Shown here piece by piece: positions 37,601-64,000 of a DNA stretch of 64,000 bases. The stretch is from the NCBI RefSeq assembly GCF_001540865.1, contig NC_033640.1, positions 1,413,866 to 1,477,865 on the forward strand. Direction: 5' to 3'. The notes beneath the pieces are model-generated. The model worked only from the letters and a program-made list of their open reading frames with translations, was not told the origin of the DNA and did not search any database. Position 1 is the stretch's first letter. Every line of letters begins with the position of its first letter. This DNA is from Ananas comosus (lineage: Eukaryota > Streptophyta > Magnoliopsida > Poales > Bromeliaceae). The translations under genes were made by a program, and so were the position numbers.

Positions 37601-37805
37601 AAAATTTTATGAATTAGTTTGGAGACGATGTTGATGGATGCACATGGTCGATCTAATGGGCGACGTCCTCTCTGTTGCTCTCTCTTTCTCTCTCTAAAAA
37701 CACCGGGCACTTTTTTCTTTTCATAAGTCAAATGCATATCGTCGCCCATTCACGTCGTAACTAATTAGTTTGGGGATGATACTTATAAAATTTTTGTCCC
37801 ACTTA

Positions 37806-38345
37806 GGGTTCTTTCATTCAACGTAAAATTATAAAAAATAATTTTTCGTGAAAAGTATTTTCAATCAAAAAAAATTATAATATTTGATTTGTAAAAAAAA
37901 TAAATTCTCATCAATATTTGTTTGTTTGGATGAAAAAAATTGATATTTATTTAGTTCGATCGAAAAAAATGAATAAGATAAGTTTTACACAACTTGAATT
38001 ATTATTTTTTGACGAAAAATAATAAAAAATAAAAAATTTATTTTTTTCAAATCCAGAAAAATATTTTTTCATAAATTATTTTTACGTCAAATCAAAAAAA
38101 AATCATACTGAAAATAATTTTTGATTTGTTTTATGCCAAACGAAGCGCCCACTCAAGCAAACATGCATAGTGGCGCTCTCAACTATCGGCCCTTTCTAAG
38201 CGAGGTCCCCCCATCTTTTATTTTATTTTTTATTTTTTTTTTTTATCGAGACGTCTTAATTTTCAAATGCCAATTTGCATAAAAAATTTATTAGTTTTGA
38301 GCTTTTGCAAAAGTAAACTGTCTTTTTAGATTTTGCAGATTCGAT
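37806..38345. mobile_element. Repeat with MITE-like ends; inverted copy at 51505-52012
   Basis: Begins gggttctttcattcaacg and carries ttttatgccaaacgaagcg, then gcaccatgc-like and cgagacgtcttaattttc blocks. The same order occurs reverse-complemented at 51505-52012, where the element end coincides with a rearrangement breakpoint. 38350-38740 continues as C/T-rich DNA without a recognised gene. Confidence 0.7.
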
Positions 38346-38910
38346 CTAAATTTTAAAAAATTAACCAAAATATCTTTATTCTCTTTTCCCTCACCTTTTT
38401 TCTCTCTCGTTCTTTTTTTCTTTCTCTCGAAAAAGGTCGGCGGAGGCGAAGGCAGCTTGCCTCACTTTTCCACGCCCCTTTGCCCTCTCTCTCACCTGCC
38501 CACCCTTCCTCTGCCTTCCTCGCCTCTGATCCCGTTGAGACCGTGCCTACGACGCTCCTCAATCACTTCCAAACTCTTTACAACAGTAAAGAGCGTAGCG
38601 TCACGTTCTCTTCCTCTCCTTTTATTTTCTCGTTCTTTATTTTTTATCTCTTCGACGCCCCTTCACCGCTTTTACGACCCTCTGTGACGGTAACGAGGAC
38701 AACGTCGCATTCTATTCCTCCGCCTTCGCTAGTGTAGGCATCGACGCCGGCACCGGAAAAGAAAGACTTGAAGCAAGTGCAGGTGGGAGGGGGGCCGAGA
38801 AAAAAAATATAGAAAATAAATAAATAAATAAATAAATATAAAAAAAATATTTTTTTCTATAAGAAAATTGAAGAACCAGAGAGAAAAGAAAAATATGATG
38901 AAGTTGTACT

Positions 38911-39600: not shown

Positions 39601-40546
39601 TTTTTTCCCTTTCCGGCAGTGGACAAAGGTCGAAGAGAAAAACAAAAAAAAAAAGAAAAAAAAAGAGGGTCGCGGCATGACCTCGGCAGGATTGGAGGCG
39701 AGGAGGACGGGGTCCACGGTCTCGAATCATAAAAATTACCGTTTTATGCCCCAAATTCATTTATTTATTCCATTTAATGACCCATTGGGGGCGGATCGGA
39801 GAGGGAGCTCCACCAACTTGGATCTGTTTGCATTCCTAGTCAGAACAAACAACAATGTTGCATCCATAAAATGCAATCATCCTGCATTTGGCAATAGCAA
39901 ACACTTCTGCTGATCAAATGCACTTGCAATAGTAATAGATCAAGGGGAAATAAAATAAAATAAAATAGGTAAAAACTTTTAGAACTTGCTTAAACTACAA
40001 TATGGACCATTTTAATGTGGCTATTTAACTTTTTCAAAATTTTTTGGTAACCAATATTTTAATTTATTTAATTTAAATCAGTCAACAAAATTATGACTTA
40101 AAAGTAACTGCTTCCTTTAAGTAGTAAATTTAGAGCTATCAAATTATATCAAATATACTACGTAAATTTATAAAGATAGACGTTTCGTTTAAATTTCGAA
40201 GTCAAAGTATCGTAGACTACGGGTGGTTATCCAGCTTGTTGTTCGTGAGCTAGCTCGTGTTCGTACGGAATAACGGAAGCTGTAGTAGGGAACGCTTTCC
40301 GATAAAGGTTGTTGTGGGCCGCAATCATCAGCCGTTTGTTTTGTTCCCATCGAACGGCCGAGAAAGAGCTTCGAATATATGATTAATTAAAATTTTCTAA
40401 CAGATTCTAATAGTAGGGATATATTTAAAAATATTAAGTCTTTTACGGAGACAGCATAGGAAAGTTGAATTTTATATGGATATATTTAGAATTCACTACA
40501 TGTACAGGGACTTGTATGCAATTAACCCTATTATTATAATTATTAT
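39601..40546. other. Intergenic DNA with transposon fragments
   Basis: 39650-39720 (ggtcgcggcatgacctcgg, gaggcgaggagg) resembles the GC-rich patch at 44566-44690. 40240-40265 is an end fragment of the hAT-like family. 40375-40527 is the right half of the GGGTTAATTTC MITE. No gene seen. Confidence 0.5.
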
Positions 40547-40555
40547 TATAATGAA

Positions 40556-41204
40556 GGCTAAATTACAGAAAACTCCCTGTAATTACCTGCTTTTTCACTT
40601 TCCTCCCTGACATTTAAAAACCTACACTTTACCCCCTTGTAAAATGAAAAATGTCCACAGGGGGGGTTACGGTGTGTAAAATGACCATTTTGTCCCTCGC
40701 CATTTTCGTCTTCTTCCTCATCTTCCTCAGCCGCCCCTTCGATCGGCCGCGATTCCAACCTCAATCGGCCGCGATTTCTCTCCATTTCCTTCTCCACCTG
40801 CTCCCCTTCTCCTCCTGCACCCTCCCCGCCCCTCGATTTCGACGATAATAGGGATGAAATCGAGGTGGGTGTTGATGGAGAGGTAGGCAAGGGCAACGAG
40901 GGCGAAGGCGAGGTGGCGGAGGAGGGCGAAAGGGATGTAGGCGAGGGCGAGGCGACGGAGGAGGGCGAAGGGGATGTGGAGGACGGCAAGGCGGCGAGGC
41001 GGCGAGCCGGAGGGAGGTGAAGCAACAAGGAAGCGGGCGGAGGGGTATTTTCGGCATAAAAAAATATTTTATAATGGAACCCTAACGGTAGGGGGTGAAG
41101 TGCATATTTTTCATTTTATAAGGGAGCAAAGTATAGGTTTTTAAATGTCATGGGGGAAAAGTGAAAAAGTGGGTTATTATAGGGGGGTTTTCTGTAATTT
41201 AGCC
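40556..41204. mobile_element. Pack-MULE-like element (649 bp) with GC-rich cargo
   Basis: Terminal inverted repeats of about 105 bp begin GGCTAAATTACAGAAAAC and end with the complement. A perfect 9-bp target duplication TATAATGAA lies at 40547-40555 and 41205-41213, the length made by Mutator-like transposases. The interior (about 40680-41045) is far more GC-rich than the arms. It is open on the minus strand for about 150 codons of Ser/Pro/acidic low-complexity peptide, consistent with a captured gene fragment whose source I cannot name. No transposase. Confidence 0.85.
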
Positions 41205-41273
41205 TATAATGAATTCAAAGGGCTATAAATAAGAAAGTTGGAGCTGCGTTCGCGCTCTTCACTCTCTCTGTTC

Positions 41274-41332
<59 letters not shown>

Positions 41333-41344
41333 GCGCTCGCCACG

Positions 41345-42016
41345 ATGAGCGACCAGGGAGAGCGAGGTCCCTCTCCCCCATTCCCATCGAACCCTAACCC
41401 TAGCCCTAACCTTAACCCTCCTCCAAGCCCCAGTCCCATTCCTAACGCCGATCGTTACCCACCGATCAATGGTGCGGCGGCGGCGAATGGGATTGAGGGA
41501 GATGAGGTCGATGATGAAGGAGATGAGGAGGGGGAGGACGATGGTGATGGTGCGGGGAATGAGGAGGGAGATGATGAGGAATAGGGCATTGATGACGATG
41601 ATAAAGGGGAGGATGATGATGATGATGATGATGAAGAGAAGGTGGATGATGGTAATGTTCCGAAGTTCTTTAGTCCTCTCGAGATGGAGGTCCTTTATTG
41701 TCTGAACAAGATTTATCTCAACGCCGTCAACGAGGCGAATCGACCGATCAAAGCGGAGATGAGCGATCTTAAATTCTCGCACCTAATGGATCAACCGTGT
41801 GCGGTTGCTAAAGAGTGCTTGCAAAAGGCCGACGAGCTCGAGCAATCCACAGCAGTCTTCGATGCGGAGTTGGCAGAGTTGGAGAAGTCGGCGGAGTTGG
41901 AGGATAAAGACGAGAGTATCGGAGCTCAGGACGGCGACGACAATCATGTTCATGACCATGATCATGATACAAACCGAGGCAGCATTACCATTATTTCGGT
42001 TAGAGAGTTCAACTAG
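41345..42016 (+). pseudogene. Acidic protein gene interrupted by one in-frame TAG
   Basis: One reading frame runs from ATG 41345 to the stop at 42014-42016, broken only by TAG at 41582-41584 (probably a GAG or GAA changed). Without it the product would be 223 residues: a Pro/Asn-rich start (SPNLNPPPSPSPIPN), a very acidic Asp/Glu stretch, then an ordered-looking half (PKFFSPLEMEVLYCLNKIYL, AEMSDLKFSHLM, VAKECLQKADELEQSTAVFD) with a helical/coiled-coil look and a His/Asp-rich tail. A (CT)n leader (41275-41332) lies upstream. No intron, so it could be a retrocopy. Translation could restart at ATG 41642, giving 124 aa. I do not recognise the family. The ATG is only 141 bp right of the Pack-MULE-like element. 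Confidence 0.5.
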
Positions 42017-42440
42017 TGGTACTGAAACATCACCTGGCGCCATTACCGTTATTTCAGTTGGTTACTCATAGTCCTGTTTCTAACAAGAGTTTGGAGTTTA
42101 CTCTGGTAAATATTCATGAGCTCAAGATAAGCACATGGTCATAATAATGCTCAACAGTTATAAACCTCTTTAGATATCTGGATAATATCATAGGTAGGGT
42201 GCTGTCAATTCTAATATTAAGCGCTTTGATTGAATCTGCGAACACCTTCACTACAATGTTGAAGATACAATTTCGAAGATACTCACACTAATTGAAGGTG
42301 TAAATTGAAAAGATATATCTTGCAAGCATGTATATGGATCGTACAATCTAGTGGGAGATTGTTTGAGTAAAATTGTGAAATTGAAAGATCATACAATCAA
42401 CTAATCTTGCCCAATTCTCTCTAAGGTTATGTTTGTGAGT
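42017..42440. other. Sequence 3' of the acidic-protein gene
   Basis: No gene seen. 42440-42503 is a leftover Mutator-like terminal repeat (ends ttttctgtaatttcacc) where the left arm of the MOCS2A inverted repeat begins. Confidence 0.45.
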
Positions 42441-42503
42441 TTTGAGAAGTTAGGGAGGGAAAGTAAAAGAAGGATAATTACAGGAGGGTTTTCTGTAATT
42501 TCA

Positions 42504-44118
42504 CCATTTTAGGAACAATTTATAATCAAACTACATACAGAAGGCCTATATTGATAGGCTCAAAACTTCTGTAGAAGTGCTTTCTAAGATAGAGCTGTTC
42601 AAGATAAAACTAACATCCTTTTTTTGCATCAACTCACCGCAACAGCTTCCTGCAAAAGCTTCAAATTGAAGTGCCCACTTTTAAAGCCTAGAAACTTGTT
42701 TTAGCTTTTAAACACAGTAAAGCTTTAGAAAAATTTCTTGGATATTGCTTCTCAGGTTAGAGAAACTATTCTGAAGCCAAACCAAACAGGCACAAAGTTC
42801 AAAATAACTGACAGTAAAAGTTGCAGTTATTGTTAGTTCAAGCTTTTAGGACAGATGAAATAAAATATCCAACAACATAAAGAGCAAAAACCTCTTCTAC
42901 AAAGATGCAATGTATATTTTTCTCCTCATTTTTGAACAAAATGTTTTACAATCCATGAAAACTATTTTTGCCAAAGCCATTAACAAAAATCAATACAAAA
43001 ACATAACAGCTATACCTATTTTATTTATTATCCTCCACTGATTGGGGGAATGATTGCTAACTCATCCGTATTTTTCAGAACTGTTGATTCTAGGGCATAC
43101 TTCTCGCTTAGCGCCAAAATCATTGAATTTGAGATCTCTTCTAAGTTTGGAAATTTGGTTAAGAGCTTACTCATACAGTCCCCAGCAGTGCTCCCTTCAG
43201 GCATTTCAATAGAGGTTTTTGATAACCCGGTTAAGTCGCGAGCTCTCGCGAAGAAGAGGGCTTTTATTTCGATCGACGAATTTATATGAACCTTAGATTT
43301 GTCATTTTCTTTCAGGATTTCGATCAATTCGCTCGTCCCATGCACAGACGAAGTATCTGAAAATCAGCAACGAAAGATAAGAGGTAGTGTTGTCAGCTTT
43401 ATAATATTTCCCTCGCTTATATATTACTAAATAATACATAAATCATTACATAGAAAACCTATTGCAAGGATAAAATTAAGACGAGATTATTCGACCTTAC
43501 AACCTTTTTGATGCGATTTTGATTTGGTCCTCAACCATAAATCTCCACGTAATTTTCATAGTTATCACAGTTTTCTACTATTCCAATTTCGAAAAGCATA
43601 TGAATCCAACTTTGAAGATTCGATAGATTAAGGACTAAGCTGAAAGAGTGGTAAAATGTTACTGAGCTCTTCTAAACTCCATCTATAAATAAGTTAGACA
43701 CCATCAATTAGAATAAACATCATGAAACATCCTGAACAAATCTGGATAAAGAAGCAGGAAAATTGCCAGTTGACAGATAGATTTGCCAACAAAGGTTGAG
43801 ATCAAGTTTATGAGTATTATGTTCAACAAATCCAAATATGCTGTTTGGCTATGAATGATCGTTGAATTAGAGGGTCTTTAATTCACTTTTTCATAATCCC
43901 TTTGTTTCGAACTCATTGTCAATAAATTACAATGATTTTCCTGGACTTGGGTGGATTTTGATAAGCGTAAGCAAATCATACAATTTGAGATCTGATTCTC
44001 CATGATTTATGTTTAACAAATGTAGAAAAATACTTGTACGTCAAATTTTCTCTCTCTCTCTCTCTCTTTTTTTTTTTTTTTTTTCTAATTGCCATGTATT
44101 GTAGAAAAAAGATAGCTT
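42504..44118. repeat. Left arm of the MOCS2A inverted repeat (1.6 kb)
   Basis: The reverse complement of this segment matches 48641-50249 over its whole length: MOCS2A 3' flank, exon 2 and ~760 bp of intron. The exon part is 307/329 identical by my own count; the flanks look similar by eye. Loop about 4.5 kb. Confidence 0.9.
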
Positions 44119-45047
44119 CGCGTCCTTTTGGCTACGTCAAATCCTAAAATTATAAAGGCCTGTTTGGAAACTCTTGAAATAATTATAATGGTTTTTTTTT
44201 TTTTAATCTATAGTTGATGTGCGTGTCCCAATACAACATTACCCTATTTAAAAGTACTCCATTTCTATGTTGTTTCAATTTTCAAGAGCCCTCAACTTCA
44301 TGTTCTTTTCCTTTTTTTTCTCAACATAGCAAAGAGTGAATTTCTATGTTGCAAAGATGCAGATACAGGGATATGAATATGATCATACAACACGATACGG
44401 ATACGATCATATGACATGATACAGATATAATGATACAACAATTCCAAAAACTCTAGGATATGATATAGGGGCTATAGTTGAATAAAATATTAGTTTAAAT
44501 ATATTTTAATATATATTGATTATATGTAATGATATATTGAGGATAATCAGCATCTCTGTGGGGCCGATGTTGGCAGAGAGGCGTCGCCGTCGGAGGCAGT
44601 GGAGGAGGGTCGGAGAGGGGAAAAAAAAATCGCAGCATGGCCGGCGGGGTCGGAGGCGAGGAAGTCATACGCGGACGAGGGTAAGAATGCACCGGACAAA
44701 ACCGAAGCTGACCGTCTCCGCCTCCGCCTCCGCCTCCGCCGCTCTTTGGGAAGAGAAAGAAAAAAAGAACGAGAGAAAAAAAAAAGATTTTGGTCTTTGT
44801 TAAAAATTCGGTTCAAATATTCAAAATTGTAAAAGGTGATCCATTTTTGCAAAAGTATAAAATTAGTGAATTTTTTATGCAAATTGATCTTAAAAAAAAT
44901 AAAAACAAAAAAATAAAAATTATAACCCCCAGCCTAAAATTCCCAAAAAAATAATTCCAACCCCAAAATTCCCGAACCCGAAGCCGCAAAACGCTCGGAG
45001 CCTCTCCCTCTCTCTCTCTCTCTCTCAGATCTCTTCTTCGTCCCCTT

Positions 45048-45080
<33 letters not shown>

Positions 45081-48000
45081 ACCCCCTCTCTCTCTCTTTG
45101 TGTGCTCGATCTCCGAGGATCCATGGCGGATCAGCTCACCGACGACCAGATCTCCGAGTTCAAGGAGGCCTCCAGCTTGTTCGACAAGGACGGCGATGGT
45201 CAGATCCCGATCCCTCTCCCCCCTTCCTCTTTTCCCTTTCCCTTTCCATTCCCAGATCATTTCCCCCTTTTCCAGATCCGTGAGATCCTCTTTTGCGATT
45301 CGATTTGATGCGATATGTTTTGTTACTTGTATTAGCCATGATCTATTCTATTTATTGGTAGTTGTTAGGTAAAAGTGCATGGATGGAGACCCCCTCAACT
45401 ATAGTCCATTTTGAAATAGGCCTCTGAACTTCTCTTTTTTGTGGATCAAAAATTTTATTAGAATTGATAGCTCCATTAGTTTTTGATCACTAGTTATTAA
45501 TGGAATGCGCACTTCGGATAAAAAAACGTAGCTGGAAACGTGAAATGTGGCGAAATCGTTGATTTATTTATTTAACCAAATTCGTCAATTGAAATCAAAA
45601 CGAATGAAGGTTGAGAGGATGCAAATGGAAACAAAAAGTAAAAAAAAATTAAAATTGAGGGTTGAGGCCTGAAGAGGGTTTATGTACATATTCACTTGAT
45701 TTTTAAATTTGTTTATTAAATCTTTTGGGTCAAATTAATCTGAAGTGTTGTGTCTGTGGCCATGATAATTCTGCGAGTACTCGTGACATTAATGTGGCTT
45801 GCGATCGGATTTAAGGCTTGAACATGTGGTGTTTGTTTACGGTACGATAGAAAGAATACTTTGTGTTTGTGTCACTCTAGTAATTCCTGGTCATATCCAG
45901 GTTGTAGTTGTTGCGTAGGTTCTTCTTGCTTATCCACTTGATGTGACAAGCTCATGTCGTGTTTATTCTAGCGCGAACTAATTTGAGCTCATAATAAGAA
46001 ATTTTTGAACTTACTTTAAAACTAATTTCTCTAAAAAGTGGTGTCTTTTTTGTTGAATTCTTCGTGGACATTACAACTTGCTTTTTAGTTGGAAACTAAT
46101 AGATGTTCTGGTACGGTACGTTTTGTGTGTATGAATTAGCTAATTGTTGCCATTGGTAAAACACGTGCAGGTATTCTTTAATTAGTTAGAGTAGAGCCTT
46201 TTAATGGCATTGTAGTTAAGATGGGAACCTACTAATCTTAAAGTTCTTGATGTAATGGAAAGTACATTGTCAATGAATTGCCAGTTGAGAGATAAGATTT
46301 GCCAACAAAGGTCGAGATCAAGTTTATGAGAATTATGTTTGACAAATCCAAATATGTTGTTTGGCTATGGATGATCATTGAATTAGAGGGTTTTTAATTC
46401 ACTTTTTCATAATCCCTTTGTTTCGAAGCTCATTGTCAATGAATTACAATGATTTCCCTCGACTTGGGTGGATTTTGATAAGGGTAAGCAAATCATACAA
46501 TTTGAGATTTGATTCTCCATGATTTATGTTTTACAAATGTAGGAAAATACTTGTACGTCAAATTTTCTTCCTTTTTTTTTTTTTCTAATTGCCATGTGCT
46601 GTAGGAAAAAGATAGCTTCGCGTCCTTTTTGGCTACCTCAAATCCTAGAATTATAAAGGCTTGTTTGGAAACTCTTGAAATAATTACAGTGGTTTTTTTC
46701 TTTTTAATCTACAATTGATGTGCGTGTCCCATTACAACATTACCCTATTTAAAAGTACTCCATTTCTATGTTGTTTCAGCTTTCAAGAGCCCTCAATTTT
46801 TTGTTCTTTTCCCTTTTTTTTCTCGACATAGCTAAGAGTGAATTTCTATGTTGCAAAGATACATATATGGGGATATGACTACGATCATACAACACAATGC
46901 AGATACGATCCTACGACACGATACGGATAAGATGATACAACAATTCTAAAAACTCTAGGATATGATATAGGGGGTATAGTTGAATAAAATATTAGTTTAA
47001 ATATATTTTAATATATATTGATTATATGTAATGATATATTGAGGATAATCAGGATATTTGTTATATGCTGATATATATTTGCTTGCATAATTGTTTTAGA
47101 TTTGTTCATCAAAAAAGATAATCAATCGTATGAAATAATAAATTCAAACAGTATTAATCAACTATCATCCAACTTGATCAAATAATAACAATAGATATTT
47201 AGTGGCACAGACTAGAAAATTAGATGAATTCATCATATATATCTGTTTTATTATATTTTATTATATAAAACAGTAATAAAAAAAATGCTAACACTTTGAT
47301 AGAAGAAGGAAAAAATCACTCTACGGCCTTTGTTAATTAGTGCTAGGTTGATAAATTAGATAAGAGAAAGTAAAAGCTAAGTCATAAAGGATTTAACCAT
47401 AGCTTAATCATGCATGGAGATAGAGCGAGAGAGAGCACCTTCAACCATCCACGAGCAAAGAGATCAAAGAAATGACGAATTGAAGAGAGAATGACATTTT
47501 TCTCACTCTTTCTTTATTTGCAATGGTTCAGGATGTGGGCGATTTGAAAAGTTTTGAGTTCCGATCATTTTAGACCAAAAAAGAATCCGACCATATCCCC
47601 CATATCCTCCCGTATCCCTCCCGTATCTGAGTCATATCCAATATTTTTTCTTAGTTTTTAAAAATGCCGAGTACTTCATTCCCATATCGGATACATATCG
47701 GGCGCGTATCGGTATCCAATATAGGAACGGCATGAAATTTGAAGTATCCGTGCTTTAGAGGTGAATTTTTATTTTACCCAAAGATAGAAAGTTTTAGAGA
47801 AAACATAATGTATCTCAACGCTTTATTTTAGATATCCATACAGTTCTTTGTAAAAACAATTGTTCATTGTGTTGAAAAACCCTCTTTTTTTTTCCATTAC
47901 AATGTTTTTATATGGTTCCCAAACAGCATAAATTATGCAGATCAGGTTGGGATTGGGAGCAAAAAATAGCAGCACAAAAATACCGAATGGGGTTGGAGCT

Positions 48001-51000
48001 CTCGCCTTTTTTGATGTTAGTTTTTTGCTCTCGATTCCGCCCCAATGTATCGCTGCATAATTTGGAAGAAAAGGATTTCAATTCATGTTATTTTTACATG
48101 CTCTAGTTAATACTATTTCAAATGATTCAAAAGCATTTGGTGGGTTTGTTTGAGGCCGAATTTGGTGTTAGTTACAACATATGCATAGTCTTTCTTTTTT
48201 TTTTTTTTTTAAAAAAACCCTTCTTAAAATGAACATACTAGTTTTCTCACTATTCAATGCAACTCCAAATTAGTTTAAACACAAAAATTCATATCTAATT
48301 TAATTAAATTGAATACCAATAAAATTCAAAATCAGTTGGATTATGGTCATATTAGATTCAATCACATATCATTCCAATTCCTGACCAACGATTTCAACCC
48401 CAAATCAAACTCACTCAAATTCATTCAAATTGCGAATCAAATCCAAATTAAAATTTTGATTCTAAGCCAAGTAACTAAAGTTCCAACACGACATTCAAAT
48501 TGGAGGCTACTTACGAACCCTAATTGTTGGAATTTGGGAGAAATTGAGAGCAAAAGGTAGGTAAATTGGAATGATTTCGCAATGGAATTCAATTCAACTC
48601 CAAATTAGTTCAAACGCAACAATCCACAACATACTTTTTGAAGCTATCTTTTTTCTACAGCACATGGCAATTAGAAAAAAAAAAGAAGAAAATTTGACGT
48701 ACAAGTATTTTCCTACATTTGTAAAACATAAATCATGGAGAATCAGATCTCAAATTGTATGATTTGCTTACCCTTATCAAAATCCACCCAAGTCGAGGGA
48801 AATCATTGTAATTCATTGACAATGAGCTTCGAAACAACGGGATTATGAAAAAGTGAATTAAAGACCCTCTAATTCAATGATCATCCATAGCTGAACAGCA
48901 TATTTGGATTTGTCAAACATAATTCTCATAAACTTGATCTCAGCCTTTGTTGGCAAATCTTATCTCTCAACTGGCAATTTTCCTGCTTCTTCAGTTAGAT
49001 TTGTTCGGGTTGTTTCATGATGTTTATTCCGATTGATGGTGTCTAACTTATTTATAGATGGAGTTTAGAACAGCTCAATAACATTTTACCACTTTTTCAG
49101 CTTAGTCCTTAATCTATCGAGTCTTCAAAGTTGGATTCATATGCTTTTTGGAATTGGAATAGTAGAAAACTGCGATAACTATGAAAATTACGTGGAGATT
49201 TATGGTTGAGGACCAAATCAAATTCGCGTCAAAAGGGTTGAAAGGTCGAATAACCTTGTCTTAATTTTATCGTTGCAATAGGTTTTCTATGTAATGATTT
49301 ATGTATTATTTAGTAATATATAAGCGAGGGAAATATGATAAAGCCGACAACACTACCTGTTATCTTTCGTTGCTGATTTTCAGATACTTCGTCTGTGCAT
49401 GGGATGACCGAATTGATCGAAATCCTGAAGGAAAATGACAAATCTAAGATTCCTATAAATTCGTCGATCGAAATAAAAGTCCTTTTCTTCGCGAGAGCTC
49501 GCGACTTAACCGGGTTATCAGAAACCTCTATTGAATTGCCCGAAGGGAGCACTGCTGGCGACTGTATGAGTAAGCTCTTAACCAAATTTCCGAACTTGGA
49601 AGAGATCTCAAATTCAATGGTTTTGGCTCTAAATGAGGAGTATGCCCCAGAATCAACAGTTCTGAAAAATAGGGATGAGTTAGCAATTATTCCGCCAATC
49701 AGTGGAGGATAATAAATAAAATAGGTATAGAAAATAACGCTTCTGTTATGTTTTTGTATTGATTTTTGTTAATGGCTTTGGCGAAAATAGGTTTCATGGA
49801 TTGTAAAACATTTTGTTTAAAAATGAGGAGAAAAATATACATTGCATCTTTGTAAGAGAGGTTTTTGCTTTTTATGTTGTTGGATATCTTATTTCATCTG
49901 TCCTGAAAGCTTGAACTAACAACAAACTGCAACTTTTAATGTTAGTTATTTTCAACTTTGTGCCTGTTTGGTTTAGCTTCAGAATAGTTTCTCTGACCTG
50001 AGAAGCAATATTCAAGAAATCTTTCTAGAACTTTATTGTGTTTGAAAGCTAAAACAAGCTTTTAGACTTTAAAAGTAGGCGCTTCAATTTGAGAAGCTTT
50101 TGCAAGCAGCTGTTGCGGTGAGTTTGATGCAAAAAAAGATGTTAGTTTTATCTTGAACAGTTCGTTCTCAGAAAGCACTTCTGCAGAAGTTTTGAGCCTA
50201 TCCATATAGGCTTTCTGTATGTAGTTTGATTACAAATTGTTCTTGAAATGGCGAAACTACAGAAAATCCTCATGTAATTTTTCGTTTTTTCACTTTTCTT
50301 CCTTGACTTTGAAAAATCTACATTTACCTCCTTAAAATTTCAAAAATATTTTCAAAAGGGTTCGGCATTAATAGAGAGGACAAAATAAGGCCTTTTTTAT
50401 AAAATGACCCTCTAAAAATTTTAAATTGGCAAAATAATCCTATCAAAATTTTATTTGAAAAACTAACCATCTTTTCGCCACGTAGGATTTTTACTATAAA
50501 GGCGGTGAATCATTCACTGCCTTTAAATATATATAATAAAGGCGGTGATTCACCGCCTTTATAATATATATGTAAAGACGGTGAATGATTCACCGTTTCA
50601 TTCACCGTCTTATCTGTGTTTATCTTCATGACTTAGATAAATTTTGATAAATTTAGGATATTTTGCACTAAAGACGGTGAATCATTCACCGCCTTTAGAT
50701 ATATATAATGAAGGCGGTGAATTCACCACCTTCATTATATATATTCACCGCCTTCATTATATATATCTAAAGGCGGTGAATGATTCACCGTTTTTATAGC
50801 AAAATCCAACGTGGCGCCCACGTGGCGAAAGAAGGGTTATTTTTCCAAATAAAATTTTGAAAGGATTATTTCTCCAATTTTAAAATTTTGGAGGGTTATT
50901 TTATAAAAAAGCCCCAAAATAACCAAATTGTCATTACTTTTTCTATAAATAAAAAATTATTTTTTAATATATTTTTGTCATTTTAAAGGATATTTTTGGT

Positions 51001-54000
51001 ATAAATTATAAGAAATGGATGGAATAGTGATGAAACCCTGACAGAGGGGAGTTAAATGCAAAAACTTGAAATTTTCAGGGGGTAAAATATAGAATTTTAA
51101 AAGTCAGAAAGTGAAAGTAAAAAAGCTGGTATTTATAAGAGGGTTTTTTATAATTTAGCTTGCTAAAATTGCTTATGAATTATCTGTTCTTATTTGTTGT
51201 ATTCTTGTTAATTTGGTTCATGATGATTCTGCCATGCTGATCAGAAAAAAAAAAAAAATTTCTTTTTCATTCTATCACATAAAAATAAAAAAATAATAAA
51301 TATTGAAGCTAGATCACTCATTTTCCAACTTTGATGCCTAATAATTATTATTATAATTAGAGCACAAAAATAGGGTTTTTTTTTTGTCCTGAGATTTGAA
51401 TTTAACAAAATTTTGTGTAAAACATGCGAGCTAGACTGCTATACTATCGGTAGTATGGACGCCTCCGTGCTACTAAGTTGTTTCAATATATTTTGATCAA
51501 TTTTTAAAAAATTTGGTGCGAATCTGTAAAATCTAAAACGACAGCCTATATTTGCAAAAGCAAACTAATAAATTTTTTATGCAAATTGGCCTTTGAAAAT
51601 TGAGACGTCTCGAAAAAAAAAAGAAAAAAAAGATGGGGGACCTTGCTTAGAAGGGCCAACATGCATGTTTGCTTAAGTGGGCGCTTGGTTAGGCATAAAA
51701 CAAACCGAAAATTATTCGCAATATGAAATTTTTTTTTTTTGATTTGATGTAAAAATATTTTTTCATAAAAATATTTTTTTGGGTTTTTATTTATTATTTT
51801 TTATAGAAAAATAAAAATTTAAGTTGTGTAAAACTTATCTTATTCATTTTTTTTATTGAACTAAACAAATATTAATTTTTTTCTTCTAATCAAATAAATG
51901 TTGATGAAAATTTATGTTTTTACAAATCAAATGCTATAAATTTTTTTTTGGATCGAAAATATTTTTCACGAAATATTTTTTTTTATAATTTTAGTTAAAC
52001 GAAAGTACCCTAAATGAATTACAATGATTTCCTTCGACTTGGGTGGATTTCGATAAGGGTAAGCAAATCATACAATTTGAGATATGATTCTCCATGATTT
52101 ATGTTTTACAAATGTAGGAAAATACTTGTACGTCAAATTTTCTCTTTTTTTTTTTTTTTTCTAATTGCCATGTGCTGTAGAAAAAAAGATAGCTTCGTGT
52201 CCTTTTTGGCTACCTCAAATCCTAGAATTATAAAGGCCTGTTTGGAAACTCCTGAAATAATTACAGTGGTTTTTTTCTTTTTAATCTACAGTTGATGTGC
52301 GTGTCCCAATACAACATTACCCTATTTAAAAGTACTTTATTTCTATGTTGTTTCAACTTTCAAGAGCCCTCAACTTTTTGTTCTTTTCTCATTTTTTTCT
52401 CAACATAGCTAAGAGTGAATTTCTATGTTGCAAAGATACATATACTGGGATATGAATACGATCATACAACACAATACAGATACGATCCTACGACACGATA
52501 CGGATAAGATGATACAACAATTCTAAAAACTCTTGGATATGATATAGGGGGTATAGTTGAATAAAATATTAGTTTAAATATATTTTAATATATATTGATT
52601 GTATGTAATGATATATTAAGGATAATCAGGATATTTGTTATATGCTGATATATATTTGCTTGCATAATTGTTTTAGATTTGTTCATCAAAAAAGATAATC
52701 AATCGTATGAAATAATAAATTCAAAAAGTATTAATCAACTATCATCCAACTTGATCAAATAATAACAATAGATATTTAGTGGCACAGACTAGAAAATTAG
52801 ATGAATTCATCATATATATCTGTTTTATTATATTTTATTATATAAAATAGTAATAAAAAAAATGCTAACACTTTGATAGAAGAAGAAAAAAATCACTCTA
52901 CGGCCTTTGTTAATTAGTGCTAGGTTGATAAATTAGATAAGAGAAAGTAAAAGCTAAGTCATAAAGGATTTAACCATAGCTTAATCATGCATGGAGATAG
53001 AGCGAGAGAGAGCACCTTCAACCATCCACGAGCAAAGAGATCAAAGAAATGACGAATTGAAGAGAGAATGACATTTTTCTCACTCTTTCTTTATTTGCAA
53101 TGGTTCAGGATGTGGGCGATTTGAAAAGTTTTGAGTTCCGATCATTTTAGACCAAAAAAGAATCCGACCATATCCCCCATATCCTCCCGTATCCCTCCCG
53201 TATCTGAGTCATATCCAATATTTTTTCTTAGTTTTTAAAAATGCCGAGTACTTCATTCCCATATCGGATACATATCGGGCGCGTATCGGTATCCAATATA
53301 GGAACGGCATGAAATTTGAAGTATCCGTGCTTTAGAGGTGAATTTTTATTTTACCCAAAGATAGAAAGTTTTAGAGAAAACATAATGTATCTCAACGCTT
53401 TATTTTAGATATCCATACAGTTCTTTGTAAAAACAATTGTTCATTGTGTTGAAAAACCCTCTTTTTTTTTCCATTACAATGTTTTTATATGGTTCCCAAA
53501 CAGCATAAATTATGCAGATCAGGTTGGGATTGGGAGCAAAAAATAGCAGCACAAAAATACCGAATGGGGTTGGAGCTCTCGCCTTTTTTGATGTTAGTTT
53601 TTTGCTCTCGATTCCGCCCCAATGTATCGCTGCATAATTTGGAAGAAAAGGATTTCAATTCATGTTGTTTTTACATGCTCTAGTTAATACTATTTCAAAT
53701 GATTCAAAAGCATTTGGTGGGTTTGTTTGAGGCCGAATTTGGTGTTAGTTACAACATATGCATAGCCTTTTTTTTTTTTTTAAAAAAAACACTTCTTAAA
53801 ATGAACATACTAGTTTTCTCACATTCCATGCAACACCAAATTAATTTAAACGCAAAAATTCATATCTAATTTAATTAAATTGAATACCAATAAAATTCAA
53901 AATCAGTTGGATTATGTTCATATTAGATTCAATCACATATCATTCCAATTCCCGACCAACGATTTCAACCCCAAATCGAACTCACTCAAATTCATTCAAA

Positions 54001-54542
54001 TTGCGAATCAAATCCAAATTAAAATTTTGATTCTAAGCCAAGTAACTAAAGTTCCAACACGACATTCAAATCGGAGGCTACTTACGAACCCTAATTGTTG
54101 GAATTTGGGCGAAATTGAGAGCAAAAGGTAGGTAAATTGGAATGATTTCGCAATGGAATTCAATTCAACTCCAAATTAGTTCAAACGCAACAATCCATAA
54201 CTAATTATTAAATTAAAATGAATACTTCTGAATTCAAAACCAATTTGAATTCCATTCGTATTTGATTCAACCACACATCATTCCAAGTTCCAACTAACAC
54301 ATTTTTCAGTCAAATTCATTCGAATTGCGAAGCAAATCCAAATTAAATTTCGATTCCAAACCAAGTCGCTAAAGTTCCAACACGAAATTGAAGCGGAGGC
54401 TAGTTACAAACCCTAATTGTTGGAATTTGATCCGAAATAAAAAAAAACGCCATAGGAAAGAGGATCGAGCGAAAACCCTAGATTTGGGTAGGTGGGGTTA
54501 GGGAGGGGGAATGATCGAACCTTTGGGTTGCTCCGTCGCCAT
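43028..54542 (-). CDS. MOCS2A: Molybdopterin synthase small subunit (MoaD-like), two exons, very long intron
   Basis: Sulfur carrier of molybdopterin synthase: its C-terminal Gly-Gly is thiocarboxylated and delivers sulfur to cyclic pyranopterin monophosphate in molybdenum cofactor synthesis (cytosol). Exon 2 (43028-43356) encodes the ubiquitin-like fold ([52 protein letters not shown]). Exon 1 is inferred at 54521-54542: ATGGCGACGGAGCAACCCAAAG followed by GTTCG, eight codons in phase with exon 2, total 116 aa. The join is supported because intron-side sequence next to exon 2 is repeated contiguously up to exon 1. The implied intron is 11,164 bp and holds several insertions, including an inverted exon-2 copy. 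Exon 2 here departs from family consensus at several sites (Ala, Lys, Met, Ser for Val, Glu, Leu, Asn), so function may be reduced. Confidence 0.6.
43762..44550. repeat. 0.8-kb direct repeat, copy 1 (partner 46275-47052)
   Basis: MOCS2A intron sequence beginning attgccagttga and ending gatatattgaggataatcag. The second copy lies 2.5 kb to the right. The 1.7 kb between copies (44551-46274) is foreign and includes the calmodulin exon. Confidence 0.88.
44551..44900. mobile_element. GC-rich transposon fragment
   Basis: Blocks gcagcatggccggcggg with gaggcgaggaag, repeated ctccgcctccgcctccgcc, and then 'gaattttttatgcaaattga'. The same blocks occur dispersed at 38250-38460 and 39650-39720. Family unknown. 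Confidence 0.5.
45003..45122 (+). promoter_or_regulatory. CT-rich 5' leader of the calmodulin exon
   Basis: Three (CT)n runs precede cgatctccgaggatcc and the ATG at 45123, as in ordinary plant calmodulin leaders. This suggests that a genuine 5' gene end was moved here. Confidence 0.55.
45123..45198 (+). pseudogene. CAM: Orphan first exon of calmodulin
   Basis: Encodes [16 protein letters not shown], then [10 protein letters not shown], and stops at donor G|GTCAGA, exactly where plant calmodulin genes have their intron, inside the first EF-hand loop. The usual Phe after KEA (Phe16 of the mature protein) is Ser here (TCC for TTC). The following exon, expected to encode the rest of EF-hand 1 to EF-hand 4 in ~370 nt, is not found anywhere to the right in this window. 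It lies antisense inside the MOCS2A intron and inside a segment bracketed by a 0.8-kb direct repeat, so it is almost certainly a broken-off 5' fragment. Confidence 0.85.
45199..46274. other. Remnant of calmodulin intron 1 and unknown DNA
   Basis: Follows the orphan exon's donor; T-rich on the plus strand like a plant intron. No exon-like block. Ends where MOCS2A intron similarity begins at 46275. Confidence 0.45.
46275..47052. repeat. 0.8-kb direct repeat, copy 2
   Basis: Partner of 43762-44550. Its first part is also found reverse-complemented at 48641-48980 and directly at 52013-52230. Confidence 0.88.
46438..48630. repeat. 2.2-kb direct repeat A1 (partner 52013-54201)
   Basis: MOCS2A intron sequence. 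Matches A2 almost base for base; the offset shifts only between 5571 and 5577. A 64-codon open frame (47912-48106) recurs at 53489-53683 with one residue changed, but it is just repeated intron. Confidence 0.93.
48641..50249. repeat. Right arm of the MOCS2A inverted repeat (1.6 kb)
   Basis: Reverse complement of 42504-44118. It also starts head-to-head with A1, forming a second, smaller inverted pair with 46275-46630. Ends exactly where a Mutator-like element begins at 50250. Confidence 0.9.
49384..49712 (+). pseudogene. MOCS2A: Inverted copy of MOCS2A exon 2, consensus-like but without exon 1
   Basis: 329 nt from the acceptor CAG to TAA, no indels relative to the minus-strand exon, 22 substitutions (12 amino-acid changes, 9 silent codons). 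Its residues agree better with the family ([44 protein letters not shown]), so it looks more constrained than the linked copy. No first exon lies upstream on this strand. An in-frame ATG at 49404 (MTELIEIL) could start a 102-aa protein if transcribed; the other copy has ACG there. It may be an inverted functional exon, a relic, or misoriented in assembly. Confidence 0.6.
50250..51160. mobile_element. Mutator-like non-autonomous element with internal palindromes
   Basis: Ends GGCGAAACTACAGAAAATCC and ...TAATTTAGCT belong to the same terminal-repeat family as 40556-41204. The 9-bp flanks tcttgaaat/tgctaaaat match at 6 of 9. The centre (50490-50800) has several copies of aaggcggtgaatgattcacc in both orientations, able to form cruciforms. 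No coding capacity. Confidence 0.65.
51505..52012. mobile_element. Inverted copy of the 37806-38345 repeat
   Basis: Same blocks in reverse complement (gcaaattggcctttgaaaat, cgagacg inverse, ccttgcttagaagggcc, gcttggttaggcataaaac). Ends gaaagtaccct exactly at the left breakpoint of repeat A2. Confidence 0.75.
52013..54201. repeat. 2.2-kb direct repeat A2
   Basis: Partner of A1. On its right it continues without a break into the MOCS2A exon-1 region, so this is probably the original location. Confidence 0.93.
54190..54425. repeat. Diverged tandem relative of 53830-54135
   Basis: Both contain gttccaacacga, aaccctaattgttggaattt and aattcaattc-like blocks in the same order, about 300 bp apart. 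An older local duplication. Confidence 0.65.
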
Positions 54543-55010
54543 GGACACGACCTTCGCCGTGGCCCTCGACACGCCCCAAAAAGCCCTAAAAATAGGTTAT
54601 GAGAAGGAGGAAGAAACAATATTCAACGGTCAACACAAAGGGCGATACACACAACTCCAACTTAGAGTGCTATATAGGGATATGTAATATCTGTCTTTGT
54701 TAGGGAGAAAATTGCAAATATGCCAGATTTATGTGGTAAATTTACGGATAACCCCTAAATTATATGACATTTGGAAAAGAATCCTTACCTCTTTTATTTC
54801 GGCACGAACTTCTTAGGTAAAATTTATGGATAAACCCCCTTAATTAATGCTCCGTTCTGAAAAGATTCCTCAACTTAAAAAGTAGTGTCATTTCATGCAA
54901 TGCGTATAGTTGAGGGGCTTTCCATACAATTTTTCTCCAAATTAAAATTCTATAAATATCAAATAAGAATTTGTATATGCGCTTATGAAAACAAAAAAAA
55001 AAGAGAAAAT
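54543..55010. promoter_or_regulatory. Putative divergent promoter, MOCS2A (-) / CRM gene (+)
   Basis: About 470 bp separates the inferred MOCS2A ATG (54542) from the likely CRM-gene leader (about 55010). It contains tgctatatagggata near 54670 on the plus strand. No certain TATA assignment. Confidence 0.4.
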
Positions 55011-56328
55011 TTTAGCCCTTCGTTCCTCTCGGCGCCGCTCTCCCCAAACCCTCGTCCCGAGTGTAACTTTAATGTCTCCATTCCTTCCCCCTTCATCTCC
55101 GACGATCTCTCCTTTGGGTTAGGGTTCGGATTCAACGCTTATATTTTAATTTTTTTGGGAATTTTTTCACGATTTAGTTGTATAAGGAAGTGCTTCATTT
55201 GGGTGGTTTTCGAAATGGGTTCTGCTTTTGCTGTTGATTTTTGCTGCATCAGGAAGCGGAAATTAGCTTCGGAGCCGTAAAAGAAGCAGCTTTGGTGAAA
55301 AGCTTCTGCTTTTGCTTCAGAAGGAAACTGTTTAGCAAACCGAAATTCTGTTCGGGAAGAAGCTTAGGGTTAGGGATTATTGCGTTTTACTTGTGACGTG
55401 AAATGGATGTTGTTTGCTGTAATATAGGGTAGTGCGCAGGAAAGGTGTTTGTTGAAATGCCGAAGAGAAAAAAGTGCTTCTTTTTTTTGGGTTTAAAATT
55501 TTGACTATCTGAATCGTTTTGTTAGTGTAGCTTGTGGAAAGTAGGATTTATTTTTCCGTTTACAATAACTCAACGAAAAACTTTTACACTATTAAATCGG
55601 ACCATCTAAATGCATTTGCGGCTTTTGGATTAATAAACTGTCCCTCTCATCATAATAAGGGGAAAAAAAGCAAAAAAAAAAGGGACAACAGTCTCTTGCG
55701 GAATTTAGAAGTAGAAGTTTAAATTAAAGCTTCTGCTTTTGATGTTCAAAAATTCATTTTAGCTTCTTATTGCAGCCAGAGGCATGTTTTTGCTTTTGGT
55801 TCGCAAAGCCATTCTTCTCCTATACTCGAAGCTTGGACAAACAAGCACCCAGGGCTTGTTTGGCTCTACTGTAGGGTGTATTGCTGTCCGATGAAGTGTT
55901 GTTTGGATAGTGCTTTTAGAAGAAGCATTGTACTAAAAATTCCTTCAATAGATTGTCTCTGCAGTAGAAGTAGGAGCACCAAATTCGAGCTTCTAGCTTT
56001 GGGCTTCAGAATCTCATTTATCATTCCCGCTGCAGTATAAGCACCAGATTTTTCCTGTTTGCCAAATGCTCTATTAAAAGTGACTATTGTTGAGAGTAGA
56101 AGTAGAAGCGGGACCAAATAATCACTTAGTACCCAAGTTCGATTATTGTTGCTTTTCCTTTTCAAAATCTATGCATTTTTTTATCAATCTTCTTCTTGGA
56201 TTTCATCGCTATCTTTTGTAACACGTGTGTTAAACTAATTTGTATTCAAATGATTTTTCAGGAAAAATGGTGAACAACTGAACTAGATGTTGATTGACTC
56301 CACCTCCTCATGCATTTAGTAATAAGCA
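55010..56328 (+). promoter_or_regulatory. 5' leader and probable leader intron of the CRM gene
   Basis: C-rich leader-like DNA (55020-55120: ctctcggcgccgctctcc, ccttcatctccgacgatc) is followed by ~1.1 kb of T-rich DNA and a good acceptor (tgatttttcag, about 56262). The segment before the ATG has two short upstream frames (M-V-N-N-stop; and a 10-codon one). Part of the intron (55850-56130) resembles a MITE. Inferred from composition only. Confidence 0.4.
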
Positions 56329-58954
56329 ATGGCACGCTGTTTCCTCTTTCTTCGAAGGCTGCAAAGGCCGCCTTCTTTATCTCTTCATAATTTGCTTTTT
56401 TCTAGAGCATTTGCTGCCCCTCTCCCTCCATCGTTATGGTCATCACTTTTTCTTTTTGATTCTCGTAACTTCCCTAATTTGTTCGGTGGAGGTTGTCCTC
56501 AATCTTTTCTCCTAGTTTCGATTAGATTCCTTTACCAAATTATACAGAACTAACTATGTAATCGTCATATACCTACCATGTAACTTTTTGATTTGTGTGG
56601 ATACTTCGATCCTATTTAACCCATAAATTTAATGGAAATGTTATGATTGTAAACATTAGACATTTTCTTGTGACAATGAAAAGGTTGGGGACCAAACTGA
56701 AACCTTCTAAAGAGTTTGGGGAACTCTAATGCAATTCACCCTCAGTTCGTTCCTCATCATCTCTCGTCGCGTTTTAAAGCAGGTATTCTCTTAACAAAAG
56801 TTCACACTCATTTCACCCATTTGGAAATTTATGGAATATAAGGAATGTTAGCTATGGATCAGTGAATCTCGTCCTTAATGACGGGATGCCAAAATTCGAG
56901 ACCCATGAGATAGAGCCTTTGAAAAAGAGGAAATGGCTCACGAAGAAGCGACTTAAGCTCAAAAGGAAACGGGAGAAGAGTAAAAGGAAGGACGCAAACA
57001 AAAAGGATCCACGACGAATACGGCCGAAAGGGTTGAAGAAAAAGCAAAAATTTCCCACTGCCGAGGCTCGGATCAAGTATAAGATTGAGAAGGTATCTAA
57101 TTTACCCTTTTGTGTTGCTACTCTCTTTGGTTTTAGATTTTATTTATTAATTTATTTTGTAAGTTGTTAAGTGTTAACTTATACATTCATTTGAAATAAC
57201 CATCCATTTATTTGAAGAAACCATCCCAGTAGGATGCTTGGTTTGGCAGACCCTATGTGATCGTTCATTCAAAAAGAGTAGGAATGGATTTTCCATTTGC
57301 TTATCCAGTCTAATCTCAGACAAAGTCAGTTAGTGTAGGACTGTAGGCGGTGTAAGATAGTTAGGAAGTCTTTCTATTTTACTGTGATATATGAATGATA
57401 TTAGTTATAAATATATATGTTTAGCTATTGACAAGCCCCTTTTTTTTTTTTTTTCAGTTTACACTAGGGAAATTTTGTGTCATCATGTCCTGTAACTTAT
57501 TATAGATACTAGGAAAATTTTGTATCATCATGTCCTGTAACTTATTATAGATAGGAATTTTAATTTAGTCGATCATTTTCAATGCAGGCCAAACTAAAGG
57601 AAGCTATGCTTGTCGAAAAGCTAAAGAAATATGAAGTCCCGGAAGTTCAAGGCCCGATGGTTAAACCTGAAGAACTGACGGGTGAGGAACGATTTTACGT
57701 AAAGAAGATGGCTCAGAGAAAATCTAACTATGTTCCCATTGGACGGCGAGGCATATTTGGAGGAGTAATACTCAACATGCACTTGCATTGGAAAAAGCAT
57801 GAAACTGTTAAGGTTATCTGCAAGCCTTGTAAACCAGGCCAAGTTCATGAATATGCTAGAGAATTAGAAAGGCTTAGTGGTGGGGTAGCTATTCAGGTTA
57901 TTGGGAATGACACGATTGTTTTCTATCGTGGAAAGAACTATGTTCAGCCTGAGGTTATGTCACCGATTGATACACTATCGAAGAAAAAGGTACTTGCAAT
58001 TTGAGTTTTTTTTTTTTTAGTTTTTTTCTTTTAGTTTTTTAGTTTTTTTTTTAATAATTTGCTTCTTTGATTGCACAACTTTTCAACTACACAATTTAAC
58101 TACTTGGGAAGCAGAAGCCAAGCATTTGAAAAACAAGGAATTTAGAGATTTTGGCTTGAGTTATATATTGAAATGAGCTTCTAGGATGCAAAAGGAAAAG
58201 CTCCACTTGAAGCTTGTGCTGCAGCATTCTGCTGTTAGGAGTGCTTGTTTGGCTTGGTTTCTTGAGCACCTCATCTGCTCGAGAAGCATATGCCGAGTGT
58301 TTCAGAAACACAAATATTTAGGCTTGTGAGTTGGCACAAAAGCAAAATGAGCTCTGTGCACCAAAAATGGAAGCTCTAGTTTGGGGCCTCTTTTTCTATT
58401 TTCATACTGGAGCTGTTGGGAGCCAAACAAGTCTGCTTACACAGCACTTCTGCATAAGCAGAACAAGTTCTTAAGAAGAAAGCTGCTAGGGCTCCAAGCA
58501 GCTCTACTGAAACATCTTTCAAGCAGCTAAATTTTAACAATTTTGTTCTTAGGCACTTGAGAAATCAAAATATGAGCAGTCGCTTGAGACAGTTAGGCGG
58601 TTCATCGCGATATCTGAGAAGGAGCTCGAGCTTTACTACCGACATGTGGCACTTTACGGCGACCCACAGACAAGGAATGCTGATTTAGTTTATGGTGATG
58701 ATCAGAAAACCCCTTTTAGCATGGGAACAGAGGAATTGAATTTTTCCAAGGAAGAAAGAGTTTGTTCTTCTGATCATTGTGATATATCAGAAGATTTTTC
58801 TGGCATGGAAGTTGACTCAGATTATGAATTTGATTCCAACGAAGGGGAATTCACTGAAGATGAAACTGATTCTGATGTGGAAGAAGAATCTAATTGTCAG
58901 GTGGATTTAGAGGATGGAGAAGAGGAATTTGAAGTGCCAAAATATCCAGCTTGA
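56329..58954 (+). CDS. CRM-domain RNA-binding protein (At3g25440-like), organelle-targeted
   Basis: CRM (YhbY-like) domains bind RNA and serve in group II intron splicing or ribosome maturation in plastids and mitochondria. Exon 1 starts MARCFLFLRRLQRPPSLSLH, a basic, Ser/Arg-rich targeting peptide; its 3' border is uncertain (56432-56516). Exon 2 (about 56783-57092) has VNLVLNDGMPKFE and a very basic stretch (KKRKWLTKKRLKLKRKR). Exon 3 (57588-57989) holds the CRM core: TGEERFYVKKM, VPIGRRGIFGGVILNMHLHW with the GxxG-type loop, KHETVKVICK and DTIVFYRGKNY. Exon 4 (58553-58954) has KYEQSLETVRRFIAISEKEL, then a long acidic tail ending VPKYPA. All internal phases agree. Which organelle cannot be told. 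Confidence 0.88.
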
Positions 58955-61646: not shown

Positions 61647-61723
61647 AGAAAAGAAATCGCAAAAGTAAAATCACAAGATTTAAGTAACATCCGACGATTT
61701 TGTAGTAATTATTTTCGCTTACA
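61647..61723. repeat. 75-bp direct repeat, left copy, with duplicated splice donor
   Basis: Contains atcgcaaaagtaaaatcaca and ends attttcgcttac, the reverse complement of GTAAGCGAAAAT. Partner at 62415-62489, whose end is the true exon-3 donor. Confidence 0.88.
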
Positions 61724-61727
61724 TAGA

Positions 61728-62415
61728 GCTTTCTGTATTGTAGTTATGATTCAAATTGTTCTTGAAATGGCCAAAACGTACAGAAAATCCTCATGTAATT
61801 TTTCGTTTTTTCACTCTTTCTTCATTGACTTTGAAAAATCTACATTTACCTGCCTTAATTTCAAAATATTTTTCAAAAGGTATTCGGCATTAATAGATGG
61901 AGAGACGGACAAAATAAGGGCTTTTTCATAAACAATGACCCTCATAATTTTATTAAAATTTTATTTCGAAAAATAACCCTCCTTTCGTCACGAAGGCGTC
62001 ACGTCAGATTTTTGCTATGAATGCGGTGAATCATTCACCGCCTTCATTATATATATGTAAAGGCGGTGAATGATTCACCGCCTTTATAATATATATGTAA
62101 AGACGGTGAATGAGTCACCGTTTCATTCACCGTCTTATCTGTGTTTATCTTCAGGACTTAGATAAATTTTGATAAATTTAGGATATTTTGCACTAAAGAC
62201 GGCGAATGATTCACTGTCTTTATAGCAAAATCCAACGTGGCGCCTACGTGGTGAAAGAAGGGTTATTTTTTCAAATAAAATTTTGAAAGGATTATTTCTC
62301 CAATTTTAAAATTTTGGAGGGTTATTTTATAAAAAAGACCCAAAATAACCAAATTGTCATTACTTTTTCTATAAATAAAAAAATATTTTTTAATATATTT
62401 TTGTCATTTTAAAGG
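61728..62415. mobile_element. Copy of the MOCS2A-flanking Mutator-like segment inserted in a GDSL intron
   Basis: Matches 50210-50989 in order and orientation, with an internal loss of about 90 bp of the cggtgaatgattcaccg palindromes. It includes ~40 bp left of the element's terminal repeat (ctttctgtat, caaattgttcttgaaatgg) and lacks the right terminal repeat, so it is a copied segment and not a clean transposition. Bracketed by a 75-bp direct duplication of host intron. Confidence 0.85.
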
Positions 62416-62489
62416 AAAAGATAATCGCAAAAGTAAAATCACAAGATTTAAAGTAAAATCACGAGATTTGTATTATTATTTTCGCTTAC
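62415..62489. repeat. 75-bp direct repeat, right copy
   Basis: Partner of 61647-61723; borders exon 3 of the GDSL pseudogene. Confidence 0.88.
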
Positions 62490-63521: not shown

Positions 63522-63916
63522 TAGCCTCTAGTAGTCATTTATTTCCGCTTCATCTAGCCCTCTAAAGTTCGAGTTTGTGGTTGCATACTTTAGATTTGTC
63601 TACAATTGTGCGAATGCCAATCTACTCTTCTTTTCTTTAGAATCACATTGTAAACAAATAAAACAAACGTTGTGAGACTAATTCTTTTATCAATTACTTA
63701 AAATGTCTATCAGTGAAANTAGCCTCTAGTAGTCATTTATTTCCGCTTCATCTAGCCCTCTAAAGTTCGAGTTTGTGGTTGCATACTTTAGATTTGTCTA
63801 CAATTGTGTGAATGCCAATCTACTCTTCTTTTCTTTAGAATCACATTGTAAACAAATAAAACAAACGTTGTGAGACTAATTCTTTTATCAATTACTTAAA
63901 ATGTCTATCAGTGAAA
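63522..63916. repeat. 197-bp tandem duplication around an N
   Basis: 63522-63718 and 63720-63916 are identical except for one base (tgtgcgaatg/tgtgtgaatg), separated by a single N at 63719. Typical of two overlapping contig ends placed side by side. Confidence 0.92.
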
Positions 63917-64000
63917 CTAAAAATCCAATTTACAGAGTCATTTATCAGTTTTAAAGCATATGTTGTGGTAAGGTTAGAATTTAGAATTCAAACTTACATA

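Follow-up and report, generated by a model that had tools for sequence, protein, structure and literature searches.

A 64,000-nucleotide stretch of pineapple (Ananas comosus) DNA (NC_033640.1, positions 1,413,866 to 1,477,865 of the forward strand; hereafter the window) was found to carry, in opposite orientations, two copies of the coding exon of MOCS2A, a sulfur carrier for molybdopterin synthase. Comparison of the sequences suggested that a fusion gene, born by rearrangement and nested in the intron of its sibling, has probably taken over the MOCS2A function, and that the sibling, which retains the ancestral first exon, is probably decaying. The C-terminal Gly-Gly of MOCS2A/CNX7/MoaD is described, in a section of PMC9370521, as being thiocarboxylated with the help of Cnx5/MOCS3 and giving the sulfur for molybdopterin. 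The preliminary description of this stretch had treated the inverted copy as a mere arm lying in the gene's intron; it turned out to be the coding exon of a fusion gene model on the + strand, and the better conserved of the two. The calmodulin 5' end in the loop, the + strand fusion, the intron copies and the question of which exon is conserved had all been overlooked.

A probable fusion gene within the intron of its sibling

The first exon of the fusion gene (45123..45198, + strand) is exon 1 of a calmodulin gene, located by tblastn with a plant calmodulin (E 7e-11); it encodes 25 amino acids plus one nucleotide and ends at the donor GATG/GTCAGA. The second exon (49384..49712, + strand) is the conserved MOCS2A (ThiS) coding exon, whose frame closes with ISGG and a stop, leaving the C-terminal Gly-Gly free. 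The calmodulin exon ends in phase 1, which matches the acceptor of the MOCS2A exon, and joining 45123-45198 to 49384-49712 yielded 134 amino acids that are letter for letter the pineapple protein P0001, both in its start and in its complete coding sequence. A protein of var. bracteatus, P0002, also of 134 amino acids, has the same fusion layout with three amino-acid differences. Homologues were gathered with the + copy as query; among the best 120 of 370 matches, a calmodulin-type start occurred in 2, both from Ananas.

The sibling runs on the − strand and encloses the fusion gene model entirely, within an intron of 11 kb. Its first exon (54521..54542) encodes MATEQPK plus one nucleotide, is in phase 1 and is directly followed by GT, and CAG directly precedes its second exon (43028..43356). 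The preliminary description had proposed these exons as phase-compatible and had spliced 54542-54521 to 43356-43028; the spliced reading frame runs uninterrupted to its stop codon, and its 116 amino acids are identical in every letter to the annotated pineapple protein P0003. As the sibling start, MATEQPKD, is akin to MGEQLKD in Typha (P0005) and MTEEPKD in Musa (P0018), this first exon was taken to be of the ancestral type.

The identity of the gene as MOCS2A, also put forward earlier, was borne out by both family and structure searches. The fusion protein matched the ThiS family (PF02597) at 64 bits, against a cut-off of 22.5, and its best match in the PDB by sequence was 5mpo_A, the sulfur carrier subunit of the human molybdopterin synthase complex. 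AlphaFold2 modeled the ThiS core (residues 51-130) with a pLDDT of 91-96 and the first 50 residues with 39-50 by block, at a whole-model pTM of 0.58. The top fold match of the core returned by Foldseek was again 5mpo_A (human MOCS2A; E 3.6e-09), placing the fusion among beta-grasp proteins. By these features, the fusion would have kept the role of MOCS2A, which carries sulfur on its C-terminal Gly-Gly for molybdopterin synthase.

Only calmodulin residues 1-25 are present in the fusion, which has no complete EF-hand, and the 25-residue part returned no Pfam match, the query being short for such a test. EF-hand motifs carry an acidic residue at loop position 12; the loop in the calmodulin part of the fusion reads DKDGDDTSSVHG and has no acidic residue there. 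Without most of its EF-hand, the calmodulin piece is probably a neutral, floppy tail with no calcium site, and what the calmodulin part contributes may be the 232 bp of 5' sequence and leader.

Conservation of the two exon copies

A search of the 382 Mb assembly found these two copies of exon 2 and no third. They differ at 22 of 329 bases, a count made earlier and reproduced here, and at 12 amino acids. The state that is commoner among homologues is held by the + copy at 10 of the 12 (sign test, p 0.039; the sites are not independent). Conserved columns were defined as those kept in at least 95% of the 117 non-Ananas homologues among the best 120 matches, within the last 80 residues (n=32). 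None of the 32 is broken by the + copy and three are broken by the − copy, namely V79I, N83S and E85K, at positions that 116, 117 and 116 of the 117 homologues keep, respectively; V32A and E46K are further altered residues in the sibling. Scored in the same way by leave-one-out, 91 homologues broke no column, 23 broke one and 3 broke two. The sibling thus departs from the family-conserved residues of MOCS2A/CNX7, though its ThiS match remains at 47 bits. In an unrooted protein tree, the terminal branch was ~0 for the + copy, 0.010 for the bracteatus copy and 0.077 for the − copy. Rooting was dropped, as the clade with both copies spanned all 120 leaves, and branch lengths only were used. The sibling would have drifted while the fusion kept the function.

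Several observations weigh against a takeover by the fusion. Gathering the homologues with the + copy as query biases the comparison toward that copy. The first four of these 12 amino-acid differences, moreover, fall in the poorly aligned N-terminal part. Divergence (K) of the exon, 0.0705, is about that of the adjacent intron, 0.065, with 0.113 in the 3' flank. In neutral simulations 22 changes altered a mean of 15 residues; the 12 observed, or a lower number, came up in 11% of runs. Constraint on the exon pair as a whole is therefore weak; little constraint on the pair is expected if one copy drifts. The neutral simulation also left the − frame open in 60-77% of outcomes, so that an open frame in the sibling says little either way. 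P0001, P0002 and P0003 are database protein models, and annotation pipelines may share errors or copy each other. Finally, the ages of the blocks that make up the locus disagree, and the order of events is not settled.

The inverted repeat and competing explanations

The two exon copies lie in the arms of an inverted repeat, the left arm (42437..44119, − strand) carrying exon 2 of the sibling and the right arm (48640..50318, + strand) carrying exon 2 of the fusion. Aligned by blastn (42437-44119 against 50318-48640), the arms are 90.7% identical over 1702 columns, and in a MAFFT alignment 1534 of 1701 columns are identical; the longest perfect run is 64 bp. The inverted arms of ~1.6 kb in the preliminary description were real, with limits slightly wider than those first drawn, and the loop between them (44120-48639) measured 4.5 kb, as had been estimated. 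Positions 42000-54600 contain 1044 inverted 21-mers, all inverted repeats of that stretch pooled, against 0 in each of 20 mononucleotide shuffles. The two exon arms can pair only in the − primary transcript of the sibling, where the effect of pairing is probably weak.

A long, close-matching inverted repeat of a gene (90.7%, 1.7 kb) is also what marks silencing loci of the GmIRCHS type, and the − primary transcript might fold into a 1.7 kb hairpin from which Dicer-like enzymes would produce small interfering RNAs (siRNAs) against MOCS2A, sibling and fusion alike. The preliminary description had suggested such a fate, or damage to splicing, for the hairpin. The arms are long and alike enough for this, with 25 perfect runs of at least 21 bp; the annotated model P0003 implies transcription through both arms; and soybean GmIRCHS, made of the 5' piece of another gene and an inverted repeat, has been connected with silencing of CHS in a section of PMC13051633. 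We nevertheless consider such silencing unlikely. Just 40 of 309 exon 21-mers are common to both exon copies without a mismatch, and no Rfam family reached its gathering score in 40000-57000. Strong silencing in particular is disfavoured, because the siRNAs would strike the only well-conserved MOCS2A copy that the genome search found; plant survival depends on the molybdenum-cofactor pathway, as stated in part of PMC5694649.

The fusion could instead be an annotation artefact, with exon 2 on the + strand expressed from another start, such as the ATG inside it at 49404, and with the calmodulin exon left as dead debris. Codon 49404-49406 reads ATG on the + strand but ACG in the − copy, and a start there would still include the whole ThiS domain. 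Moreover, residue 17 of the calmodulin part (45171-45173), which is Ser in the fusion and Phe in P0002, in the calmodulin gene on C14 and in a second copy on C20, suggests little constraint on that part. Such an artefact is unlikely all the same, as the donor and acceptor are both intact and match in phase, and the annotation of var. bracteatus contains this fusion as well.

Two further possibilities would leave the − gene with a role, and we regard each as improbable. The displaced ancestral gene may now be a regulator, its long − transcript, which would contain the coding exon of the fusion in antisense together with the sibling's sense copy, making double-stranded RNA that tunes the fusion, so that a parent would silence its own replacement. 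Alternatively, both genes may work, the − gene being a redundant or newly specialised MOCS2A that is not decaying. An intact frame, intact splice sites, the 47 bits on PF02597 and the annotation as P0003 agree with a working − gene; against it stand the changes N83S and E85K at almost invariant positions, the expectation from neutral simulation that the frame would be intact by chance, and the homologue search. Among the best 120 of 370 matches, no named var. bracteatus counterpart of the − gene appeared (many rows are nameless), and none of the 117 non-Ananas rows exceeded 81% identity.

A false inverted repeat, assembled from two haplotypes or from repeats, is very improbable. In its favour, the F153 pineapple assembly, which the present one may be, has a contig N50 of 0.02 Mb in a table of PMC8824783 (column matched by its BUSCO value), and the two long intron copies described below agree fully over seven 100-bp bins in a row. 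Against it, no N occurs across 15308-63718, the arms differ by ~9%, far above what allelic stitching would need, and var. bracteatus has the same fusion. The only Ns in the window are at 6624, 15307 and 63719, leaving the inverted-repeat locus free of them. At the last of these, two 200-bp copies that are 99% alike (63522-63919) abut at the single N, a pair that looks like an unmerged contig join.

Origin of the locus and comparison with known systems

Both parents of the fusion gene are detectable, calmodulin on C14 and the copies of MOCS2A exon 1 and exon 2 on C20, which holds the window. The calmodulin-derived segment (44891..46264, + strand) comprises 232 bp upstream of the ATG, exon 1 and ~1.07 kb of intron 1, and is 93.5% identical to the C14 gene (L027, 3111-4507). 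In the C14 gene, exon 2 is intact and 100% identical over calmodulin residues 26-149; tblastn with a plant calmodulin found nothing convincing as calmodulin exon 2 in the window. A dispersed repeat (44575..44886) sits at the edge of the segment and is also present in the second C20 copy; among the 40 candidates scored out of 1600, numerous contigs matched its query positions 25-336 at 68-82%. The C14 parent is homologous only from 44891 onward, past this repeat.

Three copies of the MOCS2A intron were recognised by blastn, all reading on the − strand. The first, R1 (52013..54201), adjoins exon 1 of the sibling. The second, R2 (46276..48630), is antisense in the intron of the fusion gene and 97.7% identical to R1 over 46438-48630. 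The third, R3 (43761..44559), is partial, adjoins exon 2 of the sibling and is 90.3% identical to 46276-47061. Between R1 and R2, seven successive 100-bp bins (47338-48037) have no difference and the other bins have 1-9, which suggests gene conversion or assembly smoothing. A dispersed repeat of ~0.85 kb (46912..47755) lies within the intron in both R1 and R2; among the 40 candidates scored out of 196, numerous contigs matched its query positions 637-1480 at 74-80%. R1 and R2 as such were rejected as a transposon, since in the same scored set matches off C20 were confined to query positions 583-1491 and the remainder matched C20 only.

The junction between the calmodulin segment and the intron holds 15 bp (46265..46279, + strand) that equal MOCS2A intron 46431-46445 and, inverted, 48824-48810; the right intron copy starts at the place equivalent to the inside of this 15-mer. 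The 15 bp look like the mark of a templated insertion, as in template-switch-like repair. Copying and inversion of the 3' half of MOCS2A, with such a junction, would have put the flipped exon under the start exon and 5' region of calmodulin. The intron of the fusion gene also contains an inverted copy of 46276-46619 (48640..48979, − strand; 96.2%), which makes a second hairpin there.

A second, inverted segment ~350 kb away on C20 (L026; C20:1816002-1833711; locus B) repeats much of window 53-64 kb. It carries another calmodulin 5' fragment between two orphan first exons of MOCS2A (at 1825420 and 1831612); exon 2 was not found there by the genome search. A single N, at 1814436, occurs in 49 kb of locus B. 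Homology between the two loci ends at 64046 in window coordinates and at 1833711 in locus B, and a paralogous segment is for that reason likelier than the other haplotype, which we had considered.

The divergence values of the blocks disagree. Denoting this locus A and the copies at locus B as B1 and B2, K 5' of exon 1 was 0.057 (A-B1), 0.040 (A-B2) and 0.061 (B1-B2), and at the start of the intron 0.029, 0.018 and 0.035 for the same pairs. The CRM-like stretch had K 0.013 between A and B1; calmodulin had K 0.016 between A and B, and 0.046 between either locus and C14. Among intron blocks, the side of exon 2 of the sibling was the most diverged, with K 0.053-0.093 to the other copies, the others lying at 0.011-0.045. 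One age for all blocks was ruled out by the K range of 0.011-0.113, which includes the conflicting values of locus B, and no dates are given. A single inversion as the sole event was likewise rejected, since more steps are needed to account for the second C20 locus, the inserted calmodulin segment and the multiple intron copies. The order that we favour would be an older duplication, next the calmodulin insertion, and last the copying and flipping of the second exon.

Other features of the window surround this locus. An element with terminal inverted repeats that are 75% alike (50251..51159) lies immediately 3' of the second exon of the fusion and has partial relatives at 40557-41204 and 61723-62416. 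The latter was probably inserted after the duplication of the segment, because it is missing at the matching place of the second C20 segment (1817871-1817948). A repeat at 51485..52016 abuts R1 and has an inverted relative at 37800-38376. Open frames were seen at 57564-58004 (+ strand) and ~62448-63473 (− strand), which we take to resemble a CRM-domain gene and a GDSL-lipase gene, respectively; the first is repeated in the second C20 segment with 100% protein identity over 136 amino acids.

If the takeover by the fusion gene is true, pineapple has exchanged an essential, ordinarily plain housekeeping gene for a fusion with the start exon and 5' region of another gene, and the ancestral form of the housekeeping gene has been caught decaying around the replacement. 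Gene takeover by fusion could then be tested at one locus, with parents, copies and junctions still readable. The nested, opposite-strand layout is a natural test of whether a working gene tolerates an inverted repeat, removes it by rapid splicing or employs it in RNA silencing. Whether the supply of the cofactor has come to track calmodulin-like expression is simply a matter of expression. Neither this locus nor such a nested replacement was found among the matches listed in the open-licence literature, taken without supplements, and the terms 'molybd' and 'calmodulin' were absent from the main text of the pineapple papers searched. The components are of known kinds; their arrangement, in which the replacement sits inside an intron of the very gene that it apparently replaced, is a variant absent among those matches.

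Like MOCS2A, CNX7 and MoaD, the fusion protein has the ThiS fold and a C-terminal Gly-Gly; unlike the usual MOCS2A, it has 25 calmodulin-derived residues in place of the first seven. The fusion gene resembles calmodulin in its exon 1 and part of intron 1, with the parent intact on C14, but with half of the first EF-hand only, its product is not a calmodulin.

Among rearranged genes, the soybean I locus and the Oryza fusion genes offer the nearest comparisons. In the section of PMC13051633 describing GmIRCHS, the 5' part of an unrelated gene (DnaJ, with its promoter) is joined to a rearranged copy of a biosynthetic gene, and a kilobase inverted repeat of that gene is present, as in pineapple. 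The captured promoter at GmIRCHS reads both arms, 78 bp apart, of an inverted repeat of a pseudogene; in pineapple, by contrast, the calmodulin start reads one intact exon as protein, and the exon hairpin could form only in the transcript of the other strand, with a 4.5 kb loop.

Four Oryza species were reported in PMC9199173 to have 310 fusion genes, the chief pattern being that a parent had been duplicated. The pineapple fusion is closest to Type I in a section of that paper (Fig. 6C), in which a local duplication is followed by insertion of a copy of an unlinked parent nearby and by fusion, and in both cases the two parents are detectable. It differs from the Oryza fusions as the section presents them in that the fused exon runs opposite to its local parent, whose intron encloses the fusion, a nested case that the section does not include, and in that conserved residues appear to be disappearing from this local parent.

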